A stretch of 64,000 nucleotides of DNA, taken from assembly GCA_903813345.2 (NCBI GenBank), contig CAIIXF020000012.1, positions 33,616,572 through 33,680,571 of the forward strand. The letters are read 5' to 3'. Position 1 is the first letter of the stretch. Each line of letters starts with the position of its first letter. The stretch comes from Owenia fusiformis (Eukaryota > Annelida > Polychaeta > Sabellida > Oweniidae). The position numbers and the translations under genes were made by a program. Shown in pieces: positions 2,145 to 60,848 of the stretch. The notes below the pieces were generated by a model. That model had not been told where the DNA came from, did no database searches, and saw nothing but the letters and a program-made list of their open reading frames with translations.

Positions 2145-2511
2145 GGGTCCGTTGTTCGGAAATCCCTGCAGTTGAGCTTGAGTACCCAGAGTGAATAGAC
2201 CGCGTCAAGTATTTTGCTAGGTTCCCATTGGTATATGTTGTATGTTAATAGAGACACTTTATTACAGGGGTTCGTTGTTGGGAAATCCCTTCAGTTGAGC
2301 TGGAGTACCCAGAGTGTATAGACCGCGTCAAGTATTTTGCTATGTTTCCATTGGTATATGTTGTATGTTAATAGAGACACTTTATTACAGGGGTCCGTTG
2401 TTGGGAAATCCCTTCAGTTGAGCTGGAGTACCCAGAGTCCATAGACCGTGTCAAGTATTTCGCTAGGTTCCCATTGATATGTTGTATGTTAATAGAGACA
2501 AATTATTACAG
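2145..2511 (+). repeat. 123-bp array: acceptor plus 5' part of exon e (3 partial copies)
   Basis: Three truncated copies of exon e precede the full exon. Each begins with a 3' splice site ('ttattacag' or 'ttgcacag') followed by GGGTCCGTTGTT or a near variant, runs to about GCTAGGTTC, and passes directly into the intron-end sequence of the next copy. Acceptors fall just before 2145, 2268, 2391 and 2512 (periods 123, 123, 121). None of the first three has a donor. Unit 2 has two partial copies and unit 3 only a degraded remnant. Confidence 0.9.
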
Positions 2512-2680
2512 GGGTCCGTTGTTGGGAAATCCCTGCAGTGGAGCTGGAGTACCCAGGGTGCATAGACCGTGTCAAGTATTTCGCTAGGTTCATTTTAGAG
2601 GGACTTGTATGTCCGAAGCTGAAGTGCTTCAGAGAGGATCTGCTGTCTGCGCCTGCCACCATGAATAAGTCATGGGCCAA
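2512..2680 (+). CDS. DHX37: DHX37 exon e, full-length copy, unit 1
   Basis: 169-bp exon following the last acceptor of the 123-bp array; donor 'gtaagt'. It reads VRCWEIPAVELEYP, then IDRVKYFARF and later LLSAPATMNKSWAK, matching the DHX37 C-terminal region (P.IEV.FP..IDRYKHFARF in the vertebrate protein, recalled from the family). Only this copy has both a complete body and a donor. Confidence 0.87.
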
Positions 2681-2754
2681 GTAAGTAATTATGTAGCACA
2701 TATCTTTGAGATGCATTGACAAAATATAGCTACTTAAGCAATTCATTGTGTATA

Positions 2755-3535
2755 CCGTATTCTCTGTAATTAGCGCCCAGGGCGTTTAGAAAATTGAAAA
2801 TACATTATTTAGACCATTCTAATAAGCGCCCATGTATGAAAGAAATCAGAAATCCCGAGGAATTTCATGTATGGCAATTTTTCTTGACAAGAATGCATTT
2901 TCTTCAACATATTTTTATAATAATATGACAAGTGCTGTCATACGGAGAGAATACGGTAAAGATCGCTTAGACAATATTGACAGTGGTTGAAGACCCGTCT
3001 ATGTCTAATTTATTTCCGGCACGCCCACTTTGTCATTATCGCCGATTACCTTCAATATTTCCACTAGAGACTGCTGGATATCGATCTAAAGTTATACATT
3101 ATTTCTAATTTGATGAGAGATCATCATTATTCGTGCAAAAGTCGTGTAAAAGTCGAGAAACATTAAAAAGAAACCAGAAAGTTCACGACCTTGACATGCG
3201 CAGAACATCTGCGCAGTAGCTTTTGAAATTTCTGAATGCCGATAAAGAACAATTCCTTCATTCATTATGGACTATTTGGAGACAATATTAGCATGGTATG
3301 GTGTGGGAAGCACCCATCGATAGATATGTATCGAGAGGATGCATAGAATTACAAAACGCGTCGTGTTTACAGCAGTTTTAAGGTAAGTACTCTATTATCG
3401 CCCGCTCCTGGATTTTGAGAAATATTTTTTTCCTGATATATTCTTCAATTCTTGTTGATTCCTCGATGTTTCTTGAACTTTGTGAAGCGGGGTGGGCGCT
3501 TATTAGAGAGTGGGCGGTAATTACAGAGAATACGG
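2755..3535. mobile_element. TIR element (MITE), 781 bp, in intron e-f
   Basis: Terminal inverted repeats CCGTATTCTCTGTAATTA at the left and the reverse complement at the right, flanked by TA duplications (2753-2754 and 3536-3537). Units 2 and 3 carry the uninterrupted intron ('gtgtatatct.gattt'), an empty site consistent with a 2-bp TA target. No transposase was recognised, so it is probably non-autonomous; the GCGCCCA-rich subterminal sequence also forms part of the inverted repeat. Confidence 0.88.
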
Positions 3536-3781
3536 TATTTCGATTTGCAATTTGTATTAATCATATTCGTTTAAGACATGTCCCATAACACATAGAGAAA
3601 AACCTGTCTAATTCAAATGCCACTTGGAGTGAGCTGGAGTGATCTGATTGGCTAGTGTTCACATTTTGTGTTTTTAACATGGAATTATGTAACAGTATAT
3701 GGGATTGAAAAAAGTGTTTAAATTGACAGTTGTTCAGATTTAGTGGTTATACAGTAAATATTTGATGTTTATTTCTTTCAG

Positions 3782-3879
3782 ATTGCAGCCTCGTACAGAG
3801 AGTCTACTGAAAGAATTATTAACAGAACAAGTTGACTGCAAAACTAAACTGTTAAAGATCTGGGAAAGTCAACCTACAT
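3782..3879 (+). CDS. DHX37: DHX37 exon f, unit 1
   Basis: 98-bp exon between 'tctttcag' and 'gtaagt'. It reads KLQPRTESLLKELLTEQVDC, then ending WESQPT. LQPRTESLL is a DHX37 C-terminal landmark. Open frame. Confidence 0.9.
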
Positions 3880-4431
3880 GTAAGTCACTTGATTTTGTAG
3901 CTAATGATGTCAATACTTGATTGTGAATAAAGTCTTATATGAATGTTGAAAGTTGGGTATTGTACTATATAAAGAGACCAAAATCAAATAAAAGATTGAC
4001 TCAATTAGGTATAAGGGGACACCAAGGACAATGCTACACTTCTTCCCCAGTTAAGATACCCCTCCTGAAATGTGGCTTTAGATTATAATTGGATACTTAT
4101 ACAAAAAGGGATGTATTAAACTTGACCCTAGACTATTTAGTAAATGCCTGTTTTCCAATACAATATGTACTGAAGCATATGCTACATCTCTTCAAAATTT
4201 GTTCATACCTAACAATAGGTATCAATGTAGGTTAGAATTTTTTTTCAATTCTTTAATGTATCTAGACTAATTTGGCAACACTTGTTTCTTGTATTTGATC
4301 TTAGCCTGATGGTCCGTTGTTTGGAAACATACATGGCACACCCCTTTTTAATGAACTCACCTGAAATAAACACTAGTCAACATAGCTATTTTTTGTATAC
4401 ACTTCAAGAGGATCATTTTTTTCTATTTCAG
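3880..4431 (+). other. DHX37 last intron, unit 1
   Basis: Conserved intron, equivalents at 34,870-35,418 and 48,840-49,381. No coding signal or inserted element recognised. Confidence 0.65.
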
Positions 4432-4508
4432 ATTTATTATCTGCCTACATGCAGTGGATCCCACAATCTCGGCATTTAGAACTAGAAGCCATGTGGCCAC
4501 CATTATAG
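4432..4508 (+). CDS. DHX37: DHX37 terminal exon g with stop, unit 1
   Basis: After acceptor 'tctatttcag' the exon completes the protein: YLLSAYMQWIPQSRHLELE, then AMWPPL and TAG. The YLL..Y..W.PQ.....E..WPP ending is the conserved DHX37 C-terminus. The 3' part of this exon, including the stop codon, is then repeated downstream. Confidence 0.9.
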
Positions 4509-5260
4509 AACTGACAGTGTTGCTATGGCAACACAGTTATGCACAGATCCCGCAATCTCGGCACTTAGAACTAGAAGCCTTGTGGCCACCATTATATGAC
4601 TGACAGTGTCACTATGGCAACACAGTTTATGCAGCAGATCGTACAATTTCGGCATTTAGAACTAGAAGCTGTGTGGCCACCATTATAGGACTGACAGTGT
4701 TGCTATGGCAACACAGTTTATTAAGTGGGTCCCTCAATCTCGGCACTTAGAACTAGAAGCCATGTGGCCATAATTATAGAACTGACAGTGTTGCTATGGC
4801 AACACAGTTTATGCACAGATCCCGTAATCTCGGCACTTAGAACTAGAAGCCTTGTGGCCACAATTATATGACTGACAGTGTCACTATGGCAGCACAGTTT
4901 ATGCAGCGGATCGTACAATTTCGGCACACTAGAACTAGAAGCCCTGTGGCCACCATTATAGGACTGAGAGTGTCACTATGGCAACACAGTTTATGCAGTG
5001 GATCCCTCAATCTCGACACTTGGAACTAGAAGCTGTGTGGCCACCATTATTGGACTGACAGTGTTGCTATGGCAACATGTTTTTTGCAGTGGCAAAATCT
5101 CAGCACTTAGAACTAGAAGTAAGGTCAACTGGCAGTGTTGCTATGGCAAGACTGTTTTTGCAGTGGATCCTACAATTATGGCACTTAAAACTAGAAACCA
5201 TATGGTCAACGAAATAGGACTGGCAGTATTGCTATGGCAACACAGGTTAAAACATTGTAA
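4509..5260 (+). repeat. ~91-bp array derived from the terminal exon and 3' UTR
   Basis: Eight or so diverged copies of the segment from the terminal exon (CAATCTCGGCACTTAGAACT, then the WPPL-stop equivalent) plus 3' UTR ('actgacagtgttgctatggc'). The TCGGCA landmark recurs at 4469, 4558, 4649, 4740, 4830, 4921 and 5013 (spacing 89-92 bp). Units 2 and 3 carry shorter versions. Because the stop codon of exon g comes first, these copies would be 3' UTR in a transcript. Confidence 0.85.
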
Positions 5261-5986
5261 ATAATGTTGAATGACAGCAATGGTTATAATTGATATAATT
5301 GTCTGAAGGTTGCATGTACATACTAGGCATACTAGGAAAAATTATATGAATATGAAATAAGAAATTATAAAAAACTATGTTTCATTTGTGTTATGTAACT
5401 GTATATTGATTTTAATACTTCATACCCATCTAACTCCTGTATTTGGTAATTTAGTGCCTGTCAGTTTGTTAACTAAAATACTTCATGTTCTCATATTCTG
5501 TCAACATGTACCAATACCAACGTTTTTTTTCATGAGACACTAGGATTTAGATCAAAACAAAAGTAGTAATTCCATGTCACTGTTATAACTCCATGTATTC
5601 CTACTTATGTTCTAGGTACATAACGAGCGGGAATATATAGTGTATCTAGGGAGTGTTCACCAAGGTCCGGGACCAGGATTGATACACGCTGTATTCATCC
5701 CGGACCCGCTTCTGAAAAGCAAACTCTATTTACATTTTACTCAATTCACGAAATATTTATTATATTTCAAACTTTTTTTTTTTTATTTTAACTTTTTAAT
5801 ATCAATTCATTAATCTGCTCCGGAAAAATATGAGTTTAAAAGTTTCACAAACTTAAAAACTACCTTTTAAGACCGGGAAAAGGCGTACTTTAAAGTACAT
5901 ATTTGAATTTTGGAACTTTATGAGGTATTATGTACCAAGAACCTCAGTTGGTATGGAAAACATCTGTCCCTATGGAGATACACATA
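5261..5986 (+). other. Downstream flank with a conserved open segment of unknown identity
   Basis: The sequence after the C-terminus is shared with 36,081-36,800 and 49,961-50,690. After an acceptor-like 'gttctag', a frame opens at 5616 and reads VHNEREYIVYLGSVHQGPGP and on to VFIPDPLLKSK, staying open to about 5795. In the 50.3-kb copy this segment carries a 3-bp in-frame insertion, which suggests former coding. I do not recognise the protein. The block ends at about 5986, where it is fused directly to a helicase exon fragment. Confidence 0.45.
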
Positions 5987-5992
5987 TACCCA

Positions 5993-6038
5993 AGAGATCA
6001 CTAGACGTCCAGTAGATGACCTTCTGCTTCTAATGAAG
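5993..6038 (+). pseudogene. DHX37: Truncated DHX37 exon (HA2 start), unit 2
   Basis: Only the 3' end of the exon intact at 54,360-54,456 remains: [15 protein letters not shown] followed by donor 'gtaagt'. The LYSSAVF...part and its acceptor are missing; the left side is fused to the post-C-terminal flank of unit 1. The EITRRPV.DL element is the family signature at the end of RecA2. It lacks an acceptor, so it is not an exon as it stands. Confidence 0.85.
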
Positions 6039-6060
6039 GTAAGTGAAAGAGGAGGAAATA

Positions 6061-6563
6061 CTGTAAAACGGGTATTGTTAGCGAGGGGTAATTGTTAGCG
6101 ATTGTTAGCGATCGCTATAGTTTTGCTAAAAATTCAATTCGCTAAAATAAACCGGGGTTAAAATAAACCGGGCGCTAAAATTTGCAAATTCCCGGGAAAC
6201 TACATGAATACTAGTATTTAAGGAGCTTTTCGTTCAGTGCTCGACTTCCGGTTTGTAATTTGAAAAAGGTAAATATTTTTAAATCGTATGTTTCTTTCAA
6301 TATCTGAAGGATAAATAGCCATCGATCATGAGATTACAGTATTTTGGATCAATACCATGTGCGTTAGAAGTCTTACATTTTGATAATTCCTCTGTCATGT
6401 CCGTTATTCATTCTTTTGCCATAAATGATAAAATTTCTAATGCATTTCGCTAATTTGATTTTTTAAAGATTAATCTTCATTTCGCTAAAATTTCCCGCGC
6501 TAAAACCCCCTAAAATTGAAAAATCGCTAAAATTTCCCAGTGTCAAAATTACCCGTTTTACAG
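6061..6563. mobile_element. TIR element (MITE), 503 bp
   Basis: Ends are CTGTAAAACGGGTA and its inverse (TACCCGTTTTACAG), flanked by TA at 6059-6060 and 6564-6565. The matching intron at 54,457-54,500 is uninterrupted and aligns with no length change if one TA is removed, giving a clean empty site. The interior contains repeated 'gctaaaat' and 'ttagcga' words and no coding frame. Confidence 0.88.
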
Positions 6564-6836
6564 TACCCAGAATTCATAGGTGAACCAATTTCCGTAAGCT
6601 ACGTGTAAAAATGAACATACAGAAAATCTTCTTTCTACTGAGATTGGTTCATATTTTAATTCTGGGATATTTCCCTGTTATTCTATGATTCCATGAACAC
6701 TTGAGTGATTCTTCTTTATATAGATGTCATCTTTTAATGATAGTGTTACTGACTGTTTCGTGAAAAAATACTGTATGTCACTGTAGTTTTGATAAATCAA
6801 AAAGTTTATTTAGAAGCTTTTCTTATGTTTTTGCAG

Positions 6837-6902
6837 GACCTCAATATTGATAAAGTGGTGAATTTCCCATTTCCCAGCCCTCCAGATAGACTAGCTTTGA
6901 AA
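6837..6902 (+). CDS. DHX37: DHX37 HA2 exon i, unit 2
   Basis: 66-bp exon after 'tttttgcag'. It reads DLNIDKVVNFPFPSPPDRLA and ends LK, the conserved V.NFPFP.PP element of DEAH HA2 domains. The last exon base is A instead of G (AAA|gtaggc against AAG|gtaggc at 54,810), which weakens the donor without changing lysine. Confidence 0.85.
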
Positions 6903-7405
6903 GTAGGCTTTTTTAATTTCCAAGTTTATTTCAAACAATCATTGAATGTTTAAAATAGATTGAATTCCCAAGGTTAATACATTAGTGGCAAGAAAGTGAA
7001 ATGTATTGAGTCATTTCATCGTAGATTGTATTACATTTTAGAGCTCAATGTTTTCTGTGTTTGAGTATTATGAATAAATGTAGTTCATTTGAATGATGAA
7101 AAGCTGTTCCTCCCATGTTGTTATCTGCCAATTTTGCATAGATATGATGTACCAATACAAGTCACTTATCAACCAATCAAAATAGGACAGAAATGCTACC
7201 AATTCATGCAAAATACCAATCACAGTTAAACCTGTGCAATTCAAACACTTTTTTGCTACCTCTTAAAGGTGTTCCACTTGGGAGGTTCTCTCCACTTGCA
7301 GACGTTCATTTAACATTATGCATCGCATGAAAATACCCTATCACATTCAACAGTATTAAGTATTAAGTCATTTGGTTATATGTAGTGGGACTCTGAAAAG
7401 TGTTA
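6903..7405 (+). other. DHX37 intron i-j, enlarged, left part
   Basis: The homologous intron in the last unit (54,811-55,028) is only about 220 bp. Here an extra ~400 bp precedes the TIR element at 7408. No termini were recognised for this extra sequence. Confidence 0.5.
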
Positions 7406-7407
7406 TA

Positions 7408-10400
7408 CGGTCATTCCACATATAAGAAGACATTCGTGTCGCCAAGGGTTTTTTCTCAAGCGTTAATAGATATATATAAAAACTTTTTAAGAACACCTAC
7501 TTAGGACCAATACCCACTTGTACAACCACCAAACAGCAAATTTTAATTGTTTGGTAGTAAGTGAGAATTTTTTCTAACTTAATTTGATGACAAATTCCTC
7601 AGGTACGTTATGTCGCCAGAGTGCATAGTGATGTTTTATAAGCATAACTGAAGTAGTTATAGATTTCAGAACACATCCAAACTTCTTGAAAAGATACCTG
7701 TGGGTGTATACTGTATTTTACCAACGTTTCGAGTAATTTAATCCTTTCTAACCTAATAATCGGATGCCCGGAACCCATGTCGCCAGTTTTTTTTCTAAAA
7801 TACCACTTTAGATATTTTAATTTCTAGAGAATGCACGAATCACTTAAATGTTTAACCCAAAGTGATAATTTATCAGAAAATGATTTATCAAAATGCATGC
7901 AAAACTTTGTACGGAAAGTGCGAAATAAGTTGATTACCTCAGCAATAAATGCTGGTAACTCAGTGGAGGAGATCATCCCGTGATCCCATGATACGCCATA
8001 CTTTATTTGCAGTCAAAGGAAATGGGATTTCTTCCTAATAATCCCTAAATAATACAGCAATCGTGTAAGTACAACACCTGTATCTTTTGCCTAAGCAAAG
8101 CTGGTTAATTAAAGATCTAGGATATCCCGATTCGGTTGAAAGATATTCTATATAAACAACTTAATTGGTCATTGTTAAAACATGATGTCAACTTTTTTCC
8201 CAAATCACATACGACTTGAGTTTTACATCAATTAAGGTACGTTGCTTTTGATAACGTCGCTTAATACTTGTTTTATTTCTGTCTTAATAGTGGTAACTAA
8301 CCCGGGAATTCACAATTTGTTGCAGAATATGGCCAAGACTAAAGCATAAATTCCAAAGAATTATAAAGAAAGAAAGAAAAGAATCGAGGGACAAAAATAC
8401 CTTGAAAAGGAACGTATCAGAAGAAGATGGAAAACAATTGAAATAAGATGATGAAAATCGCCGCCAGTGACATGCAATTGATCTTGCAAAAGTGGAGCAC
8501 ATCTACAGTGTGTCTCAAAAGAAATGTTACACTTACAAAAAGTTCAATATCTTTCATAATTTTGACTTTTCCCCTAAAATGTACTTTGGATACCAAAAGA
8601 CAAATCTTTCTCAAATAATTTGACACCATCAGATTCAAAATCTGTCCTTGATTGGCTCCTGGGGACAGCTTTTAGTGTCCCATGGTCAAACCTGACTTGC
8701 GCCAACTTCTAAGTGATTGGATGGACCAAATGACAAAAGAGGAACAGTTTCTTTAACATTTAACTTTCTTCTGAGTAGAAGCTTGACCTTTACCGGAGTC
8801 ATTCTGTAATTTTCCTATTTGTCTTACATATGATCATTGGGTCTATCCACATACACATGATGAAGAAACATGCATGTTCTCCAAAGCAAATCTGAGATAC
8901 CCTTGCTCATGCGCACATGCATTGTAATATCACACTGATTCTATCAATTGTTTTTGCAGAAGTTCATAAGGTCAGTTTGTGATGATGTAAAGCGCTTTCA
9001 GAGGCCCTTCAAAAAATAAAGGTTGTTAAGTGGGGTGACCCTGGGGGCCAATCCATTTTGTAATTCAATGCTATCTTCTGATTTCCAAAGAGTTCTACCA
9101 AACAATCTGCCACAGGCTTTTGTACCATCCTGTTGCCATCATAACAAAATTGAACACTCTGACAATGAAATCTTGTATTTCTATCCAGAAAAGAAACAAC
9201 TGGATCATTGATCATATCAAGCATCCACACCAAAAAAGAATTGATCACCACATATCCAACCACTGAGAAATTGACGCAAATCAGATTTCACATGAGTTTA
9301 TAAAATCTGTCCTGTGCAGTCAATCATGGACGGATTTTGAATCTGATGGTGTGAATTTATTCGAGAAAGACTGGTCTTTCGGCATATAAGTATATTTTGG
9401 GAAAAAAGTCAAAATCATGAAAGATATTGAACTTTTTGCAAGTGTAACATTTTTTGAGACACACTGTAGTGAAAACGTTGGGTAAAATCTTAAGCTTATT
9501 CCAGTGAAATAGACATTTGACATTTGTAAAGGAACGAAATGTCTTAGATTTAAGCGACGTTCTCTTTCATTTGCCTCTACTATGAAGCATTTTATGTTTT
9601 GTTGTTTAAGATGTTGTTATTGTTTGTAGTTGGTCATATCATGAGTTTATATTCTTCTAAACAAATAAGTAAATGATATTGATCGAGTTAAAACGTTTTG
9701 ATAATGATATTAAGATACGTTATTATTTTCAAAGTAATTTTGTATCTCTATTAAAAGATATAAAATGGTTTATGGTGACAATACAATGGAAAGGAGCTTG
9801 TGTTTTAAGACTTTGGATATATACGAGAAAGATACGGTGGATTAACAATTGCGTCAATTTTTACTTTAAGCGACGTTGTTTTGCACTGACAAGTTTAACT
9901 TATTTCTGATTATTACTAGATGTCTTTGCCACATACAAATATAGGATGATTTGAAAGCGAAATCACACAGTTTCATTGTATGCCCAAAATAACTTCTCAC
10001 ATGTTGTGTTAAACATCATGAGAAAACATGACAGTGTTGCGTTTTGTAAAACAATTTTTTTGAGAAGCGACTGCATTTATGCATTACAACGTACTTATAT
10101 GTTATGTCTTGATTGAAATGCTTAGTGATTTCCCAAATGCAATTTATAGTTTTGTTTCTTAGTGACTTATAGAATAGAGATTACCAGAGGAAGACATCGC
10201 ATATCAAGTTAGCTAAAATCTCCATAGAATAAAAGAGGTATCGAGAACGAATCTTAAACTATACGCTTTTTATAATTTTACACCTCTTATTTTCAAAATA
10301 GTGTAACTTTTGATATATAAAAGTTAAAATGCCAAAACTTTGGGATTTTATAGAGGATACATAAAACAAAATCAAAATCTGAAAATGAATGCAATGAAAC

Positions 10401-11384: not shown

Positions 11385-12054
11385 GTATATTATATTAGCT
11401 AACTCTTAAATTAATCAATGTATACCCTCCCCTCCAAAAGTTTGTCAGCGGAAGGTTTTAATTTGATAGTATATCAAATACTGTCAATGAATTTAGTTCC
11501 TTAATTACAATTGTTCCGAAATATATGACTGATGATTTATTATGTCACTATTAGAAGAGGTGACATGGTGACCTGTCACATGTTGACAGGTGACATGTTG
11601 TTATGGTCTCCAACTTTTTTTGTGGACTGTGATTGGCATTCGGCGTCTATAACAAATGCCAGGTGGGGACATTTTGCATGTCAATGCCTTGTTTTAAATG
11701 GCGACACAAAAACATGCTTTAAAATGTTTTTATGGTCTCCAACTTTTTTGAACTGTGTTCGGCATTCGGCGTCTGTAACAAATGTTGGGTGGGGCCATCG
11801 TTGTAGAATAAAGTGTATGGGAAATGAATGGCAAGTCTACAACTATATTAACACCTTTATATTAAACCAGTTCTGAACCTGGTAATTATTTTGCTCTTGT
11901 AATATGCTTATGGTTTTTTATGTGCAGGTTTTTTATGTGCATAATTTTTGTAGAGAATAAATGAAAAAAATAAGTAAAAAGATAAAGTAATGAACTTGAG
12001 CTATCAGTCATCCAGACCACCTCATTTTGTACTATATTATTAATACATTTTCAG
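11385..12054 (+). other. Intron before the 93-bp array, with dispersed repeat
   Basis: Contains two tandem copies (around 11,590-11,690 and 11,730-11,800) of a dispersed repeat marked by 'tatggtctccaactttttt', 'ggcattcggcgtct' and 'taacaaatg'. The intron ends with the same intron-end sequence that is reiterated through the following array. Confidence 0.65.
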
Positions 12055-14372
12055 GGCCAAGGTGCATTGCTAGGTGACCTGATGGTGCTTTTGAAGGCAG
12101 TAGGAGCATGTGAATACGGTTGTACTGTATTATTAATACATTTTCAGGGCCAAAGTGCATTGCAAGGGGACCTGATGGTGCTTTTGAAGGCAGTAGGAGC
12201 ATGTGAATAGTGTTGTTTTGTATTATTAATACATTTTCAGGGCCAAAGTGCATTGCTAGGGGACCTGATGGTGCTTTTGAAGGCAGTTGGAGCATGTGAA
12301 TACTGTTGAACTGTATTATTAATACATTTTCAGGGCCAAAGTGCATTGCTAGGGGACTTGATGGTGCTTTTGAAGGCAGTAGGAGCATGTGAATACTGTT
12401 GTACTGTATTATTAATACATTTTCAGGGCCAAAGTGCATTGCTAGGGGACCTGATGGTGCTTTTGAAGGCAGTTGGAGCATGTGAATACTGTTGTACTGT
12501 ATTATTAATACATTTTCAGGGCCAAAGTGCATTTCTAGGGGACCTGATGGTGCTTTTGAAGGCTGTAGGAGCATGTGAGTAGAGTTGTACTGTATTATTA
12601 ATACATTTTCAGGGCCAAAGTACATTGCTAAGGGACCTGATGGTGCCTTTGAAGGCAGTAGGAGCATGTGAATACTGTTGAACTGTATTATTAATACATT
12701 TTCAGGGCCATGGTGTATTGCTAGGGGACATGATGGTGCTTTTGAAGGCAGTAGGAGCATGTGAATACTGTTGTACTATATTATTAATACATTTTCAGGA
12801 CCAAAGTGCATTGCTAGGGGACCTGATGGTGCTTTTGAAGGCAGTTGGAGCATGTGAATACTGTTCTTTTGTATTATTTCAGGGCCAAAGTGCATTGCTA
12901 GGGGACCTCGTGGTGCTTTTGAAGGCAGTTGGAGCATGTGAATACTGTTGTTTTGTATTATTTCATGGCCAAAGTACATTGCTAGGGGACCTGATGGTGC
13001 TTTTTAAGTCAGTAAGAGCATGTGAATACTGTTTAACTGTATTATTTATACATATTCAGGGCCTAAGTGCATTGCTAGGGGACCTGATTGTGTATTTGAA
13101 GGCAGTTGGAGCATGTGAATTCAGTTGTACTGTATTATTAATACATTTTCAGGGCCAAAGAGCATTGCTAGGTGACCTGATGGTGCTTTTGAAGGCAGTA
13201 GGAGCATGTGAATACTGTTGTTTTGTATTATTTCAGGGCCAAAGTACATTGCTAGGGGACCTGATGGTGCTTTTTAAGGCAGTAGGAGCATGTGAATACT
13301 GTTGTTTTGTATTATTAATACATTTTCAGGGCCAAAGTGCATTGCTAGGGGACCTGATGGTGTTTTTGAAGGCAGTTGGAGCATGTGAATACTGTTTAAC
13401 TGTATTATTTATACATATTCAGGGCCTAAGGGCCTAATACATTTTTATGGCCAACGAAAGTGCATTGCTAGGAGACCTGATGGTGCTTTTGAAGGCAGTA
13501 GGAGCATGTGAATACTGTTGTACTGTATTATTAATACATTTTCAGAGCCAAGTGCATTGCTAGGGGACCTGATGGTGCTTTTGAAGGCAGTAGGAGCATG
13601 TGAATACTGTTGTACTGTATTATTAATACATTTTCAGGGCCAAAGTGTATTGCTAGGTGACCTTATGGTGCTTTTGAAGGCAGTAGGAGCATGTGAATAC
13701 TGTTGTACTGTATTATTTATACATTTTCAGGGCCAAAGTGCATTGCTAGGGGACCTGATGGTGCTTTTGAAGGCAGTAAGAGCATGTAGTACTGTTGTAC
13801 TATATTATTAATATATTTTCAGGACCAAAGTGCATTGCTAGGGGACCTGATGGTGCTTTTGAAGGCAGTAGGAGCATGTGAATACTGTTGTACTGTATTA
13901 TTAATACATTTTAAGGGCCAAAGTGTATTGCTAGGGGACCTGATGGTGCTTTTGAAGGCAGTTGGAGCATGTGAATACTGTTGTTCTGTATTATTAATAC
14001 ATTTTCAGGGCCAAAGTGCATTGCTAAGGGACCTGATGGTGCTTTTGAAGGCAGTTGGAGCATGTGAATACTGTTGTTCTGTATTATTAATACATTTTCA
14101 GAGCCAAGTGCATTGCTAGGGGACCTGATGGTGCTTTTGAAGGCAGTAGGAGCATGTGAATACTGTTGTTCTGTATTATTAATACATTTTCAGAGCCAAG
14201 TGCATTTCTAGGTGACCTGATGGTGCTTTTGAAGGCAGTAGGAGCATGTGAATACTGTTGTTTTGTATTATTTCATGGCCAAAGTGCATTGCTAAGGGAC
14301 CTGATGGTGCTTTTGATTGCAGTAAGAGCATGTGAATACTGTTGTACTGTATTATTAATACATTTTCAGGGC

Positions 14373-15000
14373 CAACCTGCATTGCCAGGGGACCTGATGG
14401 TGCTTTTGAAGGCAGTTGGAGCATGTGAATACTGTTGTACTGTATTATTAATACATTTTCAGGGCCAAAGTGCATTGCTATGTGACCTGATGGTGCTTTT
14501 GAAGGCAGTTGGAGCATGTGAATACTGTTGTACTGTATTATTAATACATTTTCAGGGCCAACCTGCATTGCCAGGGGACCTGATGGTGCTTTTGAAGGCA
14601 GTTGGAGCATGTGAATACTGTTGTACTGTATTATTAATACATTTTCAGGGCCAAAGTGCATTGCTATGTGACCTGATGGTGCTTTTGAAGGCAGTTGGAG
14701 CATGTGAATACTGTTGTACTGTATTATTAATACATTTTCAGGGCCAACCTGCATTGCCAGGGGACCTGATGGTGCTTTTGAAGGCAGTTGGAGCATGTGA
14801 ATACTGTTGTACTGTATTATTAATACATTTTCAGGGCCAAAGTGCATTGCTATGTGACCTGATGGTGCTTTTGAAGGCAGTTGGAGCATGTGAATACTGT
14901 TGTACTGTATTATTAATACATTTTCAGGGCCAACCTGCATTGCCAGGGGACCTGATGGTGCTTTTGAAGGCAGTTGGAGCATGTGAATACTGTTGTACTG
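14373..15000 (+). repeat. 186-bp higher-order repeat within the 93-bp array
   Basis: Two unit variants alternate: one with ACCTGCATTGCCAGG and one with AAAGTGCATTGCTATGTG. The first type starts at 14,375, 14,561, 14,747 and 14,933, exactly 186 bp apart, and the copies are virtually identical. This marks recent amplification of a dimer. Confidence 0.9.
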
Positions 15001-18000
15001 TATTATTAATACATTTTCAGGGCCAAAGTGCATTGCTAGGGGACCTGATGGTGCTTTTGAAGGCAGTAGGAGCATGTGAATAATGTTGTACTGTATTATT
15101 AATACATTTTCAGGGCCAAAGTGCATTGCCAGGGGACCTGATGGTGCTTTTGAAGGCAGTTGGAGCATGTGAATACTGTTGTACTGTATTATTAATACAT
15201 TTTCAGGGCCAAAGTGCATTGCCAGGGGACCTGATGGTGCTTTTGAAGGCAGTTGGAGCATGTGAATACTGTTGTACTGTATTATTAATACATTTTCAGG
15301 GCCAAAGTGCATTGCTAGGGGACCTGATGGTGCTTTTGAAGGCAGTTGGAGCATGTGAATACTGTTGTTCTGTATTATTAATACATTTTCAGGGCCAAAG
15401 TGCATTGCTAAGGGACCTTGTGGTGCTTTTGAAGGCAGTAGGAGCATGTGAATACTGTTGTTTTGTATTATTTCATGGCCAAAGTGCATTGCTAAGGGAC
15501 CTGATGGTGCTTTTGATTGCAGTAAGAGCATGTGAATACTGTTGTACTGTATTATTAATACCTTTTCAGGGCCAAAGTGGATTGCTTAGGGACCTGATGG
15601 TGCTTTTAAAGGCAGTAGGAGCATGTGGATACTGTTGTACTGTATTATTAATACATTTCAGGCCCAAAGTGGATTGCTTGGGGACCTGATGGTGCTTTTG
15701 AAGGCAGTAGGAGCATGTGAATACTGTTGTACTGTATAATTAATACATTTTCAGGGCCAACCTGCATTGCTTGGGGACCTGATGGTGCTTTTGAAGGCAG
15801 TAGGAGCATGTGAATACTGTTGTACTGTATTATTAATACATTTTCAGGGCCAAGGTGCATTGCTTGGTGACCTGATGGTGCTTTTGAAGGCAGTTGGAGC
15901 ATGTGAATACTGTTGTACTGTATTATTAATACATTTTCAGGGCCAAAGTGCATTGCTAGGGGACCTGATGGTGCTTTTGAAGGCAGTAGGAGCTTATGAA
16001 TACTGTTGTACTATATTATTAATACATTTTCAAGGCCAAAGTGCATTGCTAGGTGACCTGATGGTGCTTTTGAAGGCAGTTGGAGCATGTGAATACTATT
16101 GTACTGTATCATTAATACATTTTCAGGGCCAAAATGCATTGCTAGGGGACCTGATGGTGCTTTTGAAGGCAGTAGGAGCATGGGAATACTGTTGTACTGT
16201 ATTATTAATACATTTTCAGGGCCAAGGTGCATTGCTTGGTGACCTGATGGTGCTTTTGAAGGCAGTTGGAGCATGTGAATACTATTGTACTGTATCATTA
16301 ATACATTTTCAGGGCCAAAATACATTGCTAGGGGACCTGATGGTGCTTTTGAAGGCAGTAGGAGCATGTGAATACTGTTGTACTGTATTATTAATACATT
16401 TTCAGGGCCAAAATGCATTGCTAGGGGACCTGATTGTTTTTTTGAAGGCAGTTGGAGCATATGAATACTGTTGTACTGTATTACTAATACATTTTAAGGG
16501 CCAAGTGCATTGCTAGGGGACCTGATGGTGCTTTTGAAGGCAGTTGGAGCTTGTGAATACTATTGTACCGTATTACTAATACATTTTAAGGGCCAAGGTT
16601 CATTGCTTTGTGACCTGATGGTGCTTTTGAAGGCAGTGGGAGCATGTGAATACTGTTGTACCGTATTATTAATACATTTTCAGGGCCAAAGTGACTTTGA
16701 TTCTGTGATTTATTCTATCTAATTGCCATTTTATTGTCAGATGGAGCATGTGAATACTGTTGTACTGTATTATTAATACATTTTCAGGGCCAAGGTGCAT
16801 TGCTATGTGACCTGATGGTGCTTTTGAAGGCAGTAGGAGCATGTGAATACTGTTGTACTGTATTATTAATACATTTTCAGGGCCAAAGTGTATTGCTAGG
16901 TGACCTGATGGTGCTTTTGGAGGCAGTTGGAGCATGTGAATACTGTTCTTTTGTATTATTTCAGGGCCAAAGTGCATTGCTAGGGGACCTGATGGTGTTT
17001 TTGAAGGCAGGCGGAGCATGTGAATACTGTTTTTTTTGTATTATTTCAGGGCCAAAGTGCATTGCTAGGTGACCTGATGGTGTTTTTGAAGGCAGTTGGG
17101 GCATGTGAATACTGTTGTTTTGTATTACTAATATATTTTAAGGGCCATGTGCATTGCTAGGGGACCTGATGGTGCTTTTGAAGGCAATTGGAGCATGTGA
17201 ATACTTTTGTACTGTATTATTAATACATTTTCAGGGCCAAAGTGCATTGCTAGGTGACCTGATGGTGCTTTTGAAAGCAGTTGGAGCATGTGAATAGTGT
17301 TGTACTGTATTATTAATACATTTTCAGGGCCAAAGTGGATTGCTTGGGGACCTGATGGTGCTTTTGAAGGCAGTAGGAGCATGTGAATAGTGTTGTACTG
17401 TATTATTAATACATTTTCAGGGCCAAAGTGGATTGCTTGGGGACCTGATGGTGCTTTTGAAGGCAGTAGAAGCATGTGAATAGTGTTGTTTTGTATTATT
17501 TGTACATTTTAGGGCCAACCTGCATTGCTAGGGGACCTGATGGTGCTTTTGAAGGCAGTAGGAGCATGTGAATAGTGTTGTACTGTATTATTAATACATT
17601 TTCAGAGCCAAGTGCATTGCCAGGGGACCTGATGGTGCTTTTGAAGGCAGTAGGAGCATGTGAATACTGTTGTACTGTATTATTAATACATTTTCAGGGC
17701 CAAGGTGCATTGCTAGAGGACCTCATGGTGCTTTCGAAGGCAGTAGGAGCATGTGAATACTGTTGCACTGTATTATTATTACATTTTCAGAGCCAAAGTG
17801 CATTGCTAGGGGACCTGATGGTGCTTTTGAAGGCAGTAGGAGCATGTGAATACTGTTGTACTGTATTATTAATACATTTTCAGAGCCAAAGTGCATTGCT
17901 AGGGGACCTGATGGTGCTTTTGAAGGCACTAGGAGCATGTGAATACTGTTGTACTATATTATTAATACATTTTCAGAGCCAAGTGCATTGCTAGGTGACC

Positions 18001-18216
18001 TGATGGTGCTTTTGAAGGCAGTAGAAGCATGTGAATACTGTTGTACAATATCATTAATACATTTTCAGAGCCAAGTGCATTGCCAGGGGACCTGATGGTG
18101 CTTTTGAAGGCAGTAGGAGCATGTGAATAGTGTTGTTTTGTATTATTTGTACATTTTAGGGCCAACCTGCATTGCTAGGGGACCTGATGGTGCTTTTGAA
18201 GGCAGTTGGAGCATGT

Positions 18217-18896
18217 TTTGTTTTTTTATACATTATCAATTTATTTCATCATAATCATGTTTTACAAGAATGGCTTGCCAATCGCTTATAAAGCATTATA
18301 GGCTAAGCTAGAAAATACATAAATTTAATTACAAATGTAAATGCATGTAGTATGGAAGAATAGCAGCAATTTGGATAAGAAATGGGAAATAGGACAGGCT
18401 GGGGTCATGTGTCATAGTCTCAGTGAGGGAATAGTAGGCATAGTTAATACTTGCTTGGCTTGGAGGGTCCCATAGAGAATTATGATTATGTTAAGAGTTC
18501 TCCAGTAAGAAATTGGCAACAAGAGCAAAAAGTTCATTATTTTGTGCCAGCGATAAATCGTCACTGCCATGTTTCAGAAAATCTATAAATTGGCTTTTGT
18601 TCCTTATAGCTAAAGGCTTGTAAGTCTCTACAAGTGCAAGAAAAGTGTTCCTATTTTGTGCTTTATTTGGACAATAAAAGAATAAATGTTTTGGAGTTTC
18701 AGGCACACCACAAGCGCAGTTTGGTGTTTCAATATAAGTAAAGTTGTGGCCATATAGCTGAGCTTTAGTGAGCAAGTCAACTCTGAATCTATTGAGAATT
18801 ATTTCTTGATTTCTTTTTAACTTTAATTTAGTAGTTGGTAAAAAGGAGGGCTTAGGGATTTTATTTTTTTGTAAGTTATTGAAGCTGGTAATTGGT
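18217..18896 (-). mobile_element. 5'-truncated LINE tail inserted in the 93-bp array
   Basis: A minus-strand frame (18,491-18,907) contains PNCACGVPETPKHLFFYCP, the C-x-C...H-x4-C zinc-finger-like motif found near the C-terminus of non-LTR retrotransposon ORF2. The element is flanked by a 13-bp target-site duplication AGTTGGAGCATGT (18,204-18,216 and 18,897-18,909), which is itself array sequence. The A-rich 3' end of the element lies at the low-coordinate side. Confidence 0.92.
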
Positions 18897-19316
18897 AGTT
18901 GGAGCATGTGAATACTGTTCTACTATATTATTAATACATTTTCAGAGCCAAGTGCATTGCTAGGTGACCTGATGGTGCTTTTGAAGGCAGTAGGAGCATG
19001 TGAATAAGGTTTTACTGTATCATTTATACATTTTCAGGGCCAAAGTGCATTGCTAGGTGACCTGATGGTGTTTTTGAAGGCAGTAGGAGCAAGTGAATAC
19101 TGTTGTACTGTATCATTTATACATTTTCAGGGCCAAAGTGTATTCCTAGGTGACCTGATGGTGCTTTTGAAGGCAGTAGGAGCATGTGAATACTGTTGTA
19201 CTGTATTATTAATACATTTTCAGGGCCAAAGTGCATTGCTAGGGGACCTGATGGTGCTTTTGAAGGCAGTAGGAGCATGTGAATACTGTTGTACTGTATT
19301 ATTAATACATTTTCAG

Positions 19317-19473
19317 GGCCAAAGTGCATTGCTAGGGGACCTGATGGTGCTTTTGAAGGCAGTTGGAGCATGTGAATACGCTGGCTGCTCCACAGACTTC
19401 TGCTTCCAACATGGCATAAGGCATAAAGCGATGATTGAAATACGCAAACTCAGATCTCAGCTCACCAATGCAG
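19317..19473 (+). CDS. DHX37: DHX37 HA2 exon, terminal complete copy of array, unit 2
   Basis: 157-bp exon starting at the last acceptor and ending with donor 'gtatgg'. It reads [20 protein letters not shown], then [19 protein letters not shown] and ends LRSQLTNA. This is the DHX37 HA2 C-terminal (ratchet) segment; MVLL.AVGA.EYAGC..FC is conserved. It joins in phase to exon a (VNSVLP) at 31,661, with 12 kb of intron, a lectin gene and a LINE in between. Confidence 0.9.
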
Positions 19474-39034: not shown

Positions 39035-39044
39035 GATCACCCAT

Positions 39045-49381: not shown

Positions 49382-49458
49382 ATTTATTATCTGCCTACAT
49401 GCAGTGGATCCCACAATCTCGGCATTTAGAACTAGGAGCCATGTGGCCACCATTATAG
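49382..49458 (+). CDS. DHX37: DHX37 terminal exon g with stop, unit 3
   Basis: 77 coding bp after 'tatatttcag'; YLLSAYMQWIPQSRHLELG, then AMWPPL, TAG. One glutamate is glycine relative to units 1 and 2. Confidence 0.88.
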
Positions 49459-49960
49459 GACTGACAGTGTTGCTATGGCAACACAGTTTACGGAGCGGAT
49501 CTCACAATCTGGGCACTTAGAACTAGAAGCCATGTGGCCACCATTATATGACTGAAAGTGTCACTATGGCAACACAGTTTATGCAGCGGATCGTACAATT
49601 TCTGCACTTAGAACTAGAAGCCGTGTGGCCACCATTATAGGACTGAGAGTGTCACTATGGCAACACAGTTTATGCAGTGGATCCCTCAATCTCGGCACTT
49701 AGCACTAGAAGCCGTGTGGCCACCATTATGGGACTGACAGTGTTGCTATGGCAACATGTTTTTGCAGTGGCAAAATCTCGGCACTTAGAAGTAGAAGCAA
49801 GGTCGTCATCAGAATAGACCACTGGCAGAATTGCTATGGCAACACTGTTTTTGCAGTGGGTCCTACAATTATGGCACTTAAAACTAGAAGCCATAGGGTC
49901 AACGAAATAGGACTGGCATTATTGCTATGGCAACATAGTTTAAAACATTGTATATAATGT
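49459..49960 (+). repeat. ~91-bp array of terminal exon / 3' UTR, unit 3
   Basis: About five further copies of the terminal-exon segment with landmarks 'ctcggcacttag', 'gtggccaccatta' and 'ctatggcaaca'. Confidence 0.82.
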
Positions 49961-51469: not shown

Positions 51470-51477
51470 CTGTACAG

Positions 51478-52350: not shown

Positions 52351-52458
52351 GTGTTTGAGTCGCCCCCTGCTGGCCATAGACTAGTAGTTGTTGCTACAAA
52401 CGTTGCAGAAACTTCACTCACAATACCAAACATTAAATATGTGGTTGACACTGGAAAG
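52351..52458 (+). CDS. DHX37: DHX37 RecA2 exon with motif V
   Basis: 108 bp, acceptor 'tgtattgtag', donor 'gtaggt'. It reads [20 protein letters not shown], then [27 protein letters not shown] is helicase motif V, which couples ATP state to RNA binding. Its 3' 78 bp plus the donor are repeated three more times downstream, in frame. Confidence 0.92.
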
Positions 52459-52719
52459 GTAGGTACACTAGTAGTAGTTGCTACAAATGTGTCAGAAACG
52501 TCACTTACAATACCATACATTAAATATGTGGTTGACACTGGAAAGGTGGGTAAACTAGTAGTAGTTGCTACAAATGTGGCAGAAACATCACTTACAATAC
52601 CATACATTAAATATGTGGTTGACACTGGAAAGGTGGGTAAACTAGTAGTAGTTGCTACAAATGTGGCAGAAACATCACTTACAATACCGAACATTAAATA
52701 TGTGGTTGACACTGGAAAG
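52459..52719 (+). repeat. DHX37: 87-bp in-frame array of motif V exon plus donor (3 extra copies)
   Basis: Unit: about 9 bp of intron start (gt[ag]ggta...) fused to the LVVVATN...DTGK coding segment. Alternative donors follow 52,458, 52,545, 52,632 and 52,719, exactly 87 bp (29 codons) apart. The frame is open throughout, so use of the last donor gives a 369-bp exon with four motif V copies joined by VG[TK] linkers. Confidence 0.92.
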
Positions 52720-53239
52720 GTAGGCAGATTAAGATTAAACCATTATGTCTTCGATGAAATTCCCAAATATTTCCCAGAAACTAGATCTAGATAAATACTG
52801 ACAAGAAAAATATCAAAAGTTGTTGAATATGTTCCTTTTCGTTCAACAAGAGAGAATATTTGCTTAATAATGTTTTTTTGGGGATCATTTAGTTCCTGAC
52901 TTCTTAAGCATAGATGTATAGATGCATTTACCAGTGCAGAATGCAATTGCGGTAAAACTTGTATATTTTTTGATTCTGTTTTTAGCAAACCTTGACATTT
53001 GAACACCTGCTAATTCAAACACTTTTGGCTGGTCCCAATGGTGGTCAGACTAGCTAGATAGGTTTTACTCTACAGGTCCATAGCCAGGATTTGCCAAGAG
53101 TGTTCACTTTTTGAAAAATTCCAGGGGGGTTATCTTGTGAACATTCTGGTCCACAAATGGCCAAAAACACTTAAAAGTGCTCAGAATGCTCTATATGAAT
53201 ATTACATGTAGTTGAATTATTTGATTGCTCATCTTTCAG
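52720..53239 (+). other. DHX37 intron after motif V
   Basis: Ordinary intron; the motif V frame runs on to a stop at about 52,794. No insertion recognised. Confidence 0.6.
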
Positions 53240-55566: not shown

Positions 55567-56261
55567 GTATATTATATTAGCTAACTCTTAAATTAATCAA
55601 TGTATACCCTCCCCTCCAAAAGTTTGTCAGCGGAAGGTTTTAATTTGATAGTATATCAAATACTGTCAATGAATTTAGTTCCTTAATTACAATTGTTCAG
55701 AAATATATGACTGATGAATTATTATGTCACTATTAGAAGAGGTGACATGATGACCTGTCACATGTTGACAGGTGACATGTTGTTATGGTCTCCAACTTTT
55801 TTTGTGGACTGTGATTGGCATTAGGCGTCTATAACAAATGCCAGGTGGGGACATTTTGCATGTCAATGCCTTGTTTTAAATGGTGACACAAAAACATGCT
55901 TTAATATGTTGTTATGGTCTCCAACTTTTGTGAACTGTGTTCGGCATTCGGCGTCTGTAACAAATGTCGGGTGGGGCCATCGTTGTAGAATAAAGTGTAT
56001 GGGAAATGAATGGCAAGTCTAAAACTATATTGACACCTTTTTATATTAAACCAGTTCTGAACTCACTCTGACCCTTGTGATATATCCTGGTAATTATTTT
56101 GCTCTTGTAATATGCTTATGGTTTTTTATGTGCAGCTTTTTATGTGTATAATATTTGTTGAGAATAAATGAAAAAAATAAGTAAAAAGATAAAGTAATAA
56201 ACTTGAGCTATCAGTCATCCAGACCACCTTATTTTTTACTATATTATTAATACATTTTCAG
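55567..56261 (+). other. Intron before the 93-bp array, fourth segment
   Basis: Homologue of 11,385-12,054 with the same pair of dispersed repeat copies (about 55,780-55,880 and 55,910-55,980). Confidence 0.65.
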
Positions 56262-59200
56262 GGCCAAAGTGCATTGCTAGGTGACCTGATGGTGCTTTTG
56301 AAGGCAGTAGGAGCATGTGAATACGGTTGTACTGTATTATTAATACATTTTCAGGGCCAAAGTGCATTGCTAGGGGACCTGATGGTGCTTTTGAAGGCAG
56401 TAGGAGCATGTGAATAGTGTTGTTTTGTATTATTAATACATTTTCATGGCCAAAGTGCATTGCTAGGGGACCTGATGGTGCTTTTGAAGGCAGTAGGAGC
56501 ATATGAATAGTGTTGTACTGTATTATTAATACATTTTCAGGGCCAAAGTACATTGCTAGGAGACCTGATGGTGTTTTTGAAGGCAGTTGGAGCATGTGAA
56601 TAATGTTGTACTGTATTATTAATACATTTTCAGGGCCAAAGTACATTGCTAGGAGACCTGATGGTGCTTTTGAAGGCAGTAGGAGCATATGAATAGTGTT
56701 GTACTGTATTATTAATACATTTTCAGGGCCAAAGTACATTGCTAGGAGACCTGATGGTGCTTTTGAAGGCAGTAGGAGCATATGAATAGTGTTGTACTGT
56801 ATTATTAATACATTTTCAGGGCCAAAGTGCAATGCTTGGTGACCTGATGGTGCTTTTGAAGGCAGTTGGAGCATGTGAATACTGTTGTACTGTATTATTA
56901 ATACATTTTCAGGACCAAAGTGCATTGCTAGGTGACCTGATGGTGCTTTTGAAGGCAGTAGGAGCATGTGAATACTGTTGTACTGTATTATTAATACATT
57001 TTCAGGGCCAAAGTGTATTGCTAGGTGACCTTATGGTGCTTTTGAAGGCAGTAGGAGCATGTGAATACTGTTGTACTGTATTATTTATACATTTTCAGGG
57101 CCAAAGTGCATTGCTAGGGGACCTGATGGTGCTTTTGAAGGCAGTAAGAGCATGTAGTACTGTTGTACTATATTATTAATATATTTTCAGGACCAAAGTG
57201 CATTGCTAGGGGACCTGATGGTGCTTTTGAAGGCAGTAGGAGCATGTGAATACTGTTGTTCTGTATCATTAATACATTTTCAGGGCCAAAGTACATTGCT
57301 AGGGGACCTTGTGGTGCTTTTGAAGGCAGTAGGAGCATGTGAATACTGTTGTTTTGTATTATTTCATGGCCAAAGTGCATTGCTAGGTGACCTGATGGTG
57401 CTTTTGAAGGCAGTAGGAGCATGTGAATACTGTTGTTTTGTATTATTTCATGGCCAAAGTGCATTGCTAAGGGACCTGATGGTGCTTTTGAAGGCAGTAG
57501 AAGCATGTGAATACTGTTGTTTTGTATTATTTCATGGCCAAAGTGCATTGCTAGGTGACCTGATGGTGCTTTTGAAGGCAGTAGGAGCATGTGAATACTG
57601 TTTTACTGTATTATTAATACATTTTCAGGGCCAAAGTGCATTGCTTGGGGACCTGATGGTGCTTTTGAAGGCAGTAGGAGCATGTGAATACTGTTGTACT
57701 GTATTATTAATACATTTTCAGGGCCAAAGTATATTGCTTGGGGACCTGATGGTGCTTTTGAAGGCAGTAGGAGCATGTGAATACTGTTGTACTGTATTAT
57801 TAATACATTTTCAGGGCCAAAGTATATTGCTTGGGGACCTGATGGTGCTTTTGAAGGCAGTAGGAGCATGTGAATACTGTTTTACTGTATTATTAATACA
57901 TTTTCAGGGCCAAAGTGCATTGCTAGGTGACCTGATGGTGCTTTTGAAGGCAGTAGGAGCATGTGAATACTGTTTTACTGTATTATTAATACATTTTCAG
58001 GGCCAAAGTGGATTGCTTTGGGACCTGATGGTGCTTTTGAAGGCAGTAGGAGCATGTGAATACTGTTGTACTGTATAATTAATACATTTTCAGGGCCAAC
58101 CTGCATTGCTAGGTGACCTGATGGTGCTTTTGAAGGCAGTTTGAGCATGTGAATAGTGTTGTTTTGTATTATTAATACATTTTCAGGGCCAAGGTGCATT
58201 GCTAGGTGACCTGATGGTGCTTTTGAAGGCAGTAGGAGCATGTGAATACTGTTGTACTGTATTATTTATACATTTTCAGGGCCAAAGTGCATTGCTAGGG
58301 GACTTGATGGTGCTTTTGAAGGCAGTAGGAGCATGTGAATACTGTTGTACTGTATTATTAATACATTTTCAGGGCCAAAGTGCATTGCTTGGGAACCTGA
58401 TGGTGCTTTTGAAGGCAGTATGAGCATGGAGATACTGTTGAACTGTATTATTAATACATTTTCAGGGCCAAAGTGCATTGCTAGGGGACCTGATGGTGCT
58501 TTTGAAGGCAGTAGGAGCATGTGAATAGTGTTGTACTATATTATTAATATATTTTCAGGGCCAAAGTGCATTGCTAGGTGACCTGATGGTGCTTTTGAAG
58601 GCAGTTGGAGCATGTGAATACTGTTATACTGTATTATTAATACATTTTCAGGGCCAAAGTGCATTGCTAGGGTACCTGATGGTGCTTTTGAAGGCAGTTG
58701 GAGCATGTGAATACTGTTGTACTGTATTATTAATACATTTTCAGGGCCAAAGTGCATTGCTAGGTGACCTGATGGTGATTTTGAAGGCAGTAGGAGCATG
58801 TGAATACTGTTGTACTGTATTATTAATACATTTTCAGGGCCAAAGTGCATTGCTAGGGGACCTGATGGTGCTTTTGAAGGCAGTAGGAGCATATGAATAG
58901 TGTTGTTTTGTATTATTAATACATTTTCATGGCCAAAGTGCATTGCTAGGGGACCTGATGGTGCTTTTGAAGGCAGTAGGAGCATATGAATAGTGTTGTA
59001 CTGTATTATTAATACATTTTCAGGGCCAAAGTACATTGCTAGGGGACCTGATGGTGCTTTTGAAGGCAGTTGGAGCATGTGAATACTGTTGTACTGTATT
59101 ATTAATACATTTTCAGGGCCAAAGTGCATTGCTAAGTGACCTGATGGTGCTTTTGAAGGCAGTAGGAGCATGTGAATACTGTTGTACTGTATTATTAATA

Positions 59201-60691
59201 CATTTTCAGGGCCAAAGTGCATTGCTAGGTGACCTGATGGTGCTTTTAAAGCCAGGAGGAGCATGTGAATACTGTTGTACTGTATTATTAATACATTTTC
59301 AGGGCCAAGGTGCATTGCTTAGGGACCCGATGGTGCTTTTGAAGGCAGTAGGAGCATGTGAATACTGGTGTACTATATTATTAATACATTTTCAGAGCCA
59401 AGTGCATTGCTAGGTGACCTGATGGTGCTTTTGAAGGCAGTAGGAGCATGTGAATACGGTTGTACTGTATTATTAATACATTTTCAGGGCCAAAGTGCAT
59501 TGCTAGGGAACCTGATGGTGCTTTTGAAGGCAGTAGGAGCATGTGAATACTGTTGCACTGTATTATTAATACATTTTCAGAGCCAAGTGCATTGCTAGGT
59601 GACCTGATGGTGCTTTTGAAGGCAGTAGGAGCATGTGAATACTGTCGTACTGTATTATTAATACATTTTCTGGGCCAAAGTGCATTGCTAGGGGACCTGA
59701 TGGTGCTTTTGAAGGCAGTAGGAGCATGTGAATACTGTTGTACTGTATTATTAATACATTTTCAGGGCCAAGGTGCATTGCTTAGGGACCCGATGGTGCT
59801 TTTGAAGGCAGTAGGAGCATGTGAATACTGGTGTACTATATTATTAATACATTTTCAGGGCCAAGGTGCATTGCTTAGGGACCTGATGGTGCTTTATAAG
59901 GCAGTAGGAGCATGGGAATACTGTTGTTCTGTATTATTAATACATTTTCAGGACCAAGGTGCATTGCTTAGGGACCTGATGGTGCTTTTGAAGGCAGTAG
60001 GAGCATGTGAATACTGTTGTACTGTATTATTAATACATTTTCAGAGCCAAGTGCATTGCTAGGGGACCTGATGGTGCTTTTGAAGGCAGTAGGAGCATGT
60101 GAATACAGTTGTTCTGTATTATTAATACATTTTCAGGACCAAGGTGCATTGCTAGGGGACCTGATGGTGCTTTTGAAGGCAGTAGGAGCATGGGAATACT
60201 GTTGTTCTGTATTATTAATACATTTTCAGGACCAAGGTGCATTGCTTAGGGACCTGATTGTGCTTTATAAGGCAGTAGGAGCATGTGAATACTGTTGTAC
60301 TGTATTATTAATACATTTTCAGGACCAAAGTGCATTGCTAGGGGTCCTGATGGTGCTTTTGAAGGCAGTAGGAGCATGTGAATACTGTTGTACTGTATTA
60401 TTAATACATTTTCAGGGCCAAGTGCATTGCTAGGGGACCTGATGGTGCTTTTGAAGGCAGTAGGAGCATGTGAATACTGTTGTTTTGTATTATTAATACA
60501 TTTTAGGGCCAAAGTGCATTGCTAGGTGACCTGATGGTGCTTTTGAAGGCAGTAGGAGCATGTGAATACTGTTGTACTGTATTATTAATACATTTTCAGG
60601 GCCAAGTGCACTGCTAGGGGACCTGATGATGCTTTTGAAGGCAGTAGGAGCATGTGAATACTGTTGTACTGTATTATAAATACATTTTCAG
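56262..60691 (+). repeat. DHX37: 93-bp exon/acceptor array (~48 copies), fourth segment
   Basis: Same unit as at 12,055. It shares rare variants with that array, notably the GCATGTAGTACTG unit followed by 'atattttcaggaccaaag' (13,788-13,830 and 57,151-57,195), so at least part of the array predates the segmental duplication. Several units have 'tatttcatggcc', where the acceptor AG is lost. Many units contain GAATAG stops. Confidence 0.94.
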
Positions 60692-60848
60692 GGCCAAAGT
60701 GCATTGCTAGGGGACCTGATGGTGCTTTTGAAGGCAGTTGGAGCATGGGAATACGCTGGCTGCTCCATAGACTTCTGCTTTTAACAAGCCATAAGGCATA
60801 AAGCGATGATTGAAATACGTAAACTCAGATCTCAGCTCACCAATGCAG
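60692..60848 (+). pseudogene. DHX37: DHX37 HA2 exon, terminal array copy with nonsense codon, fourth segment
   Basis: 157 bp with intact acceptor and donor. It reads [20 protein letters not shown] and [10 protein letters not shown], then TAA (60,782-60,784) where the other two segments have CAA (FCFQHGIRH). Further changes (C to W, H to A) surround it. The only segment retaining motifs V and VI therefore has a stop in this exon. Confidence 0.9.

Follow-up and report, generated by a model that had tools for sequence, protein, structure and literature searches.

The closest described counterparts of the repeats reported here are the mirages of amphioxus, tandemly duplicated exon-intron boundaries for which reverse transcription PCR suggests normal splicing (PMC3087553; PMC3902484). 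Mirages are minisatellite-like duplications of either exon edge, with units of 10-160 bp and variable copy number, and they occur in the globin genes BflGb6 and BflGb9 and in Adh3 (PMC3087553) as well as in TnC and PGBD5 (PMC3902484). We show here that arrays of the same build occupy the DHX37 locus of the annelid Owenia fusiformis. They lie in the window, a 64-kb stretch of contig C12 (C12:33616572-33680571) in an assembly of 498 Mb and 525 contigs that was searched as a whole, and in a full-length DHX37 gene upstream of it. An amphioxus source of the DNA was rejected: in the family scans, matches at megabase positions fall on contigs C1-C12 only, in keeping with 12 chromosomes (amphioxus has 19), and the genome gives three matches to the erythrocruorin linker, a family not known outside annelids. 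A GFP-family scan gave no match, which shows little, since the control genomes gave none either. The arrays are likely to be mirage-type minisatellites, tolerated survivors of tandem duplication, and they probably represent a known kind of repeat, larger and in a different phylum.

The unit spans an exon-intron boundary in all DHX37 arrays except that of the last exon, and both acceptor and donor sides are present. Unit size is likewise as in amphioxus, and copy number varies, here between paralogues. In contrast to the amphioxus mirages, the Owenia arrays affect six exons of one gene, reach up to ~70 units and recur in several unrelated genes of an annelid. An additional type covers the stop codon and 3' untranslated region (UTR) of the last exon and hence the end of the coding sequence. 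Two other systems are related. In potato, a tandem duplication across an intron-exon boundary created an intron whose donor came from an exonic segment (PMC4974935), whereas the arrays found here are long. Internal tandem repeats of human segmental duplications are also variable and placed at exon edges of segmentally duplicated genes, but they concern primate-specific genes with transcript-supported altered structures (PMC2812944), while DHX37 is an old, conserved gene. Tandemly duplicated, mutually exclusive exons were rejected because each unit read has one exon edge and not a complete exon with both splice sites. Among the listings and passages of the literature searched, no report of mirages in annelids was found; for an earthworm, minisatellites inside an intron are described (PMC12783039). 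Mirages in several annelid genes suggest that they are no oddity of lancelets. The arrays are plausible raw material for new introns, and a conserved gene that appears intact despite several near-identical acceptors before one exon (dozens in its partial copies) offers a natural test of splice-site choice.

Anatomy of the DHX37 arrays

The sequence-only reading of the window had assigned all arrays to one gene. The window itself holds parts of four partial DHX37 copies, none of them complete, but a single full-length gene upstream does contain all four arrays that had been noticed. This gene occupies C12:33481365-33505628 within the 239 kb analysed around the cluster, 175 kb of which were fetched around the window. 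Our 25-exon model has AG/GT borders and an open frame of 1,170 residues; we placed these borders manually, guided by AG/GT signals and frame, until the model was open, so its openness is partly by construction. The product matches human DHX37 (PDB) in one stretch (residues 254-1169; 1,199.6 bits), and the best PDB match of the motif V exon is DHX37. Within the 239-kb region exons E1-E9 are confined to the full-length gene, and E19 is found in ten tandem 3' modules. The DHX37_C exon has nine matches in the genome, all in the cluster (C12:33504912-33710582). A motif V match at C11:12255848, considered as a second DHX37, belongs by eye to a different DEAH helicase and was rejected.

The four exons first reported as arrayed are so, but their number rises to six, because the full-length gene also carries arrays of E4 (motif I; 138 bp, 16 units) and E5 (motif Ia; 87 bp, 4 units). 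The other four are those of E12 (motif V; 87 bp, 2 units, a pair read in the sequence, compared with 4 in a window copy), E18 (HA2; 93 bp, 7 units), E23 (123 bp, 8 units) and the last exon, E25 (91 bp, 8 units according to Tandem Repeats Finder, TRF). In the hand-set model the authentic complete exon is kept at the end of the array. As read in the sequence, a unit fuses part of an exon with the adjoining intron edge or, in E25, with the stop codon and 3' UTR. Three forms occur: an acceptor with the head of its exon, the tail of an exon with its donor, and the tail of an exon with the stop.

All four array types of the window (87, 93, 123 and 91 bp) were recovered by TRF at the places described before, and the reading of their units bears out that each straddles an exon edge. 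With TRF scores of 587 to 9337 and unit matches of 75-98%, chance is excluded. All DHX37 arrays of the window are on the forward strand. The E23 arrays, acceptor plus head of a C-terminal exon with AGGT near the unit junction, lie at 2141-2591 (123 bp x 3.7), whose last copy is the full exon (2512-2680), and at 33994-34361 (x 3.0; full exon 34282-34450). The E25 arrays of exon tail, stop and 3' UTR are found at 4449-5119 (91 bp x 7.4), with a first copy (4432-4508) that gives the normal C-terminus, at 35436-36071 (x 7; first copy 35419-35495) and at 49399-49942 (x 6; first copy 49382-49458). E12 is represented once, by an exon tail plus donor array at 52380-52724 (87 bp x 4.0) whose first copy is the full exon (52351-52458). 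The E18 arrays, acceptor plus exon head, are the largest. One has 66 anchored units of 93 bp at 12027-18216, is interrupted by ~680 bp (18217-18896), and resumes with 5 further units at 18897-19379, ending in full E18 (19317-19473); an antisense open reading frame (ORF) overlapping the interruption resembles by eye the end of a long interspersed nuclear element (LINE) reverse-transcriptase protein. A second lies at 40033-41001 (93/84 bp x 10.7; 13 anchored units from 39744; full E18 40939-41095), and a third at 56237-60754 (93 bp x 48.9), where the last full E18 (60692-60848) has an in-frame TAA.

HA2 copy number differs between paralogous arrays, from 4 to 66 units. Modules 4 and 7 have an identical set of unit lengths in their 91-bp arrays, and the first 91-bp units of different modules are less divergent (0.056) than the units of a single array (0.242). 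Arrays of the same exon in different copies are therefore probably inherited by segmental duplication and not independent events. Arrays of different exons remain, and the earlier argument that a single slippage would not suffice holds, as several separate duplications are needed. The cluster is unusually rich in arrays, since 44,383 of its 239,000 bases lie in arrays of period at least 30, compared with 4,044 of 96,150 in control loci; the full-length gene has 5,842 of ~25,500.

Exon-edge arrays in other genes

Exon-edge arrays are not special to DHX37. As controls we took the 30 best of 85 Helicase_C matches, each in a locus of ~3.2 kb, so that the loci are exon-centred; two of them (L043 and L044) are neighbouring paralogues and two others (L046 and L048) lie 0.6 kb apart. 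With a minimum period of 50 and a minimum score of 150, chosen after the list had been seen, eight arrays remain, and four of the eight straddle exon edges, read without exon annotation. Two of these belong to an ATRX-like gene, another to a paralogue close by, and the fourth to a gene that by eye is DDX3-like. Their periods are 129, 122 and 87 bp in the ATRX-like sequences, for which the assignment was checked for the 129-bp exon alone, and 112 bp in the DDX3-like gene. One ATRX-like exon has 6 units in one paralogue and 2 in the other. In the remaining four control arrays no coding sequence was recognised by eye.

Two more genes emerged from family scans. An exon of a kinesin is matched 18 times at a spacing of 159 bp (122 of 218 candidates scored), and one of an ISWI-like gene 5 times at ~137 bp (79 of 79 scored). 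No further short-period set of matches was found for Helicase_C (150 of 155 candidates scored), no short array for the myosin head (65 of 210), and no arrays for DEAD (47 of 149) and ABC (19 of 194). Among all 12 arrays that were classified, eight are of the acceptor type, three of the donor type and one of the stop type, and none is exon-internal.

Two observations stand beside these scans. The ATRX-like gene at C2:7808373-7875782 (L043 and L044) is present in neighbouring copies, each with exon-edge arrays of differing unit number. Twelve myosin-head matches to one exon region (C9:37986009-37994334) were rejected as an array, as their spacing is irregular (~0.3-1.9 kb); they are perhaps alternative exons.

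Origin and persistence of the arrays

Here we infer the choice of splice site, the neutrality of whole arrays, the order of events and the mechanism of duplication. Short tandem duplications would have arisen at several places in DHX37 and then have grown and shrunk by unequal exchange or slippage. A duplication that takes in a single splice site, or the stop codon, would leave one complete exon, expected as the last copy in acceptor arrays and the first in donor and stop arrays. If splicing pairs the nearest acceptor and donor across an exon, surplus copies would act as intron or UTR and be near-neutral, while most exon-internal duplications would be purged by selection. A preference for proximity across the exon is described for competing 5' splice sites (PMC9225289), and by analogy it may extend to the acceptors of these arrays. 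Such a filter, together with frequent tandem duplication at the locus, could yield the observed edge pattern, which can thus be explained without targeting. The DHX37 arrays would have been born in, or before, a single full gene and would have been copied with its 3' half as this gave rise to ten tandem modules.

Several results weigh against this explanation. In the full-length gene, 5 of 8 TRF arrays straddle an exon edge where 1.7 are expected under random placement of the same unit lengths (P = 0.011), or 5 of 7 without a 48-bp array (P = 0.008); two overlapping TRF rows were merged, the motif V pair, which TRF did not list, and a nested 21-bp array were left out, and as the locus was picked for its arrays the P values are suggestive only. 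A pure survivorship filter does not fully explain this excess. The absence of exon-internal arrays from the gene carries little weight, since 0.36 are expected, and a 21-bp array in a coiled-coil ORF of the cluster is exon-internal in coding sequence, although its unit of seven codons may make it tolerable. A mutational mechanism that targets exon-intron boundaries, coupled for example to transcription, R-loops or splicing, so that duplications start there more often, would account for the excess, for the edge position of half of the control arrays and for the same structures in amphioxus. However, DHX37 was chosen for its arrays and the control loci are exon-centred; the other half of the control arrays lacks recognised coding sequence; and the few junctions compared by eye share ~0-6 bp of microhomology and no common motif. 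We regard such targeting as unlikely. The wider proposal, in which this genome and lancelets share a mechanism that biases tandem duplication towards exon edges, we hold to be rather improbable; if true, mirages would be a recurrent mutational process linked to splicing or transcription in distant animals and not survivors of random duplication. Reading frame supplies the strongest point for the sequence-only reading and a further one against simple tolerance. Three of the four periods first described are indeed multiples of three (87, 93 and 123 bp), and so are all five splice-edge periods of DHX37 (138, 87, 87, 93 and 123; P = 0.004); once the stop array is included, 5 of 6 are (P = 0.018). 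Selection could hold these periods if read-through isoforms were translated into a repeat-bearing DHX37, and the motif Ia and V arrays are open when read onward from the exon frame, as are long runs of HA2, which is mostly open. Among 169 of 183 HA2 units that passed the alignment filter, with the intron part excluded because unit-length variants misalign, the per-unit ratio of nonsynonymous to synonymous changes (N/S) is 0.62 of the neutral expectation, and 0.64 and 0.67 in the two large arrays. Shared ancestry weights this figure, and distinct variants are therefore preferred; for these the ratio is 1.29 of neutral for all units together, with 1.04 and 1.28 for the two large arrays and 1.59 for the full-length gene, whose seven units give 2.19 when counted per unit. 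Stops in HA2 number 23 against 16.7 expected, and spacings of 92 bp occur in 29 of 166 cases (84 bp in 20 of 166). Units of the HA2 array thus lose frame, and its distinct variants are near-neutral. Stops close the units of motif I and of the C-terminal exon, two of the five DHX37 arrays with a period divisible by three, and by eye also the kinesin unit despite its period of 159 bp. Outside DHX37, 3 of 6 periods (129, 122, 87, 112, 159 and 137) are multiples of three (P = 0.32); an excess does appear when the 11 splice-edge arrays are pooled (8 of 11, P = 0.009), driven by DHX37. The suggested selection on frame is unsupported by these data, and we consider it highly improbable.

The nine partial 3' modules could also be functional, for example as alternative 3' ends of one large gene, with arrays that aid the choice between them. 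Differences between copies in E19-E25 are mainly synonymous (pairwise omega-like values of 0.08-0.35; shared variants N 14, S 34), and copies 6 and 8 are free of stops and frameshifts. Private changes in E19-E25 outside copy 1 are nevertheless N 21 and S 14, about half of the neutral expectation (P = 0.047). For E10-E17 the counts are N 14, S 10 among shared variants and N 22, S 26 among private ones, the latter including N 10, S 3 in copy 4, N 3, S 0 in copy 7 and N 2, S 13 in copy 9. Copies 2, 3, 4, 5, 7 and 9 each have one or more exons with a stop or frameshift, where some frameshift assignments may be alignment-edge effects; in this and the omega-like comparison copy 5 mixes modules 5a and 5b, which are separated in the variant counts. 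We read this as a common constrained past of the modules, or exchange with the functional gene, and a constraint that by now would be mostly relaxed. Function of the modules is very unlikely in our estimation, though some of them may still be live. Long arrays in a single assembly could finally be an artefact, yet units diverge within arrays by 1-28% on average, one array is split by an insertion, and copy numbers differ among paralogous modules, which makes an artefact exceedingly improbable. Tolerated survival of tandem duplications is the explanation that we favour.

Sequences within and around the modules

Between E18 and E19, two of the window's modules contain an antisense ORF that encodes a Fibrinogen_C domain (20540-21103 and 42066-42743, reverse strand). 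A third module has a similar ORF at 61907-62548, assigned by resemblance only, as the domain scan covered the other two. The recurrence of such ORFs between E18 and E19 suggests that the 3' half of DHX37 was duplicated together with a nested fibrinogen-like gene. Near the fibrinogen-like ORF, the 21-bp array lies in a reverse-strand ORF (22747-23007 and 43762-43875) and encodes seven-residue repeats in a coiled-coil stretch. Its unit numbers are 12.4 and 5.4 in the two paralogues, and the repeats probably form a stalk whose length varies.

Eight other modules share 96-100% identity with copy 1 in the coding sequence of E25 (for example 4432-4508, 35419-35495 and 49382-49458), while the intron before it is 72-95% identical to copy 1 in seven matching modules; synonymous sites of E25 are therefore little changed. 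LINE-like ORFs, by eye a reverse transcriptase and an upstream ORF, are present on the reverse strand at 26267-30810, between E18 and E19 of one module. At two further places of the joined 239-kb region (L006, 50714-54139, and L016, 219021-222995), a 132-bp array occurs twice per place in opposite orientation and forms large inverted arrays.

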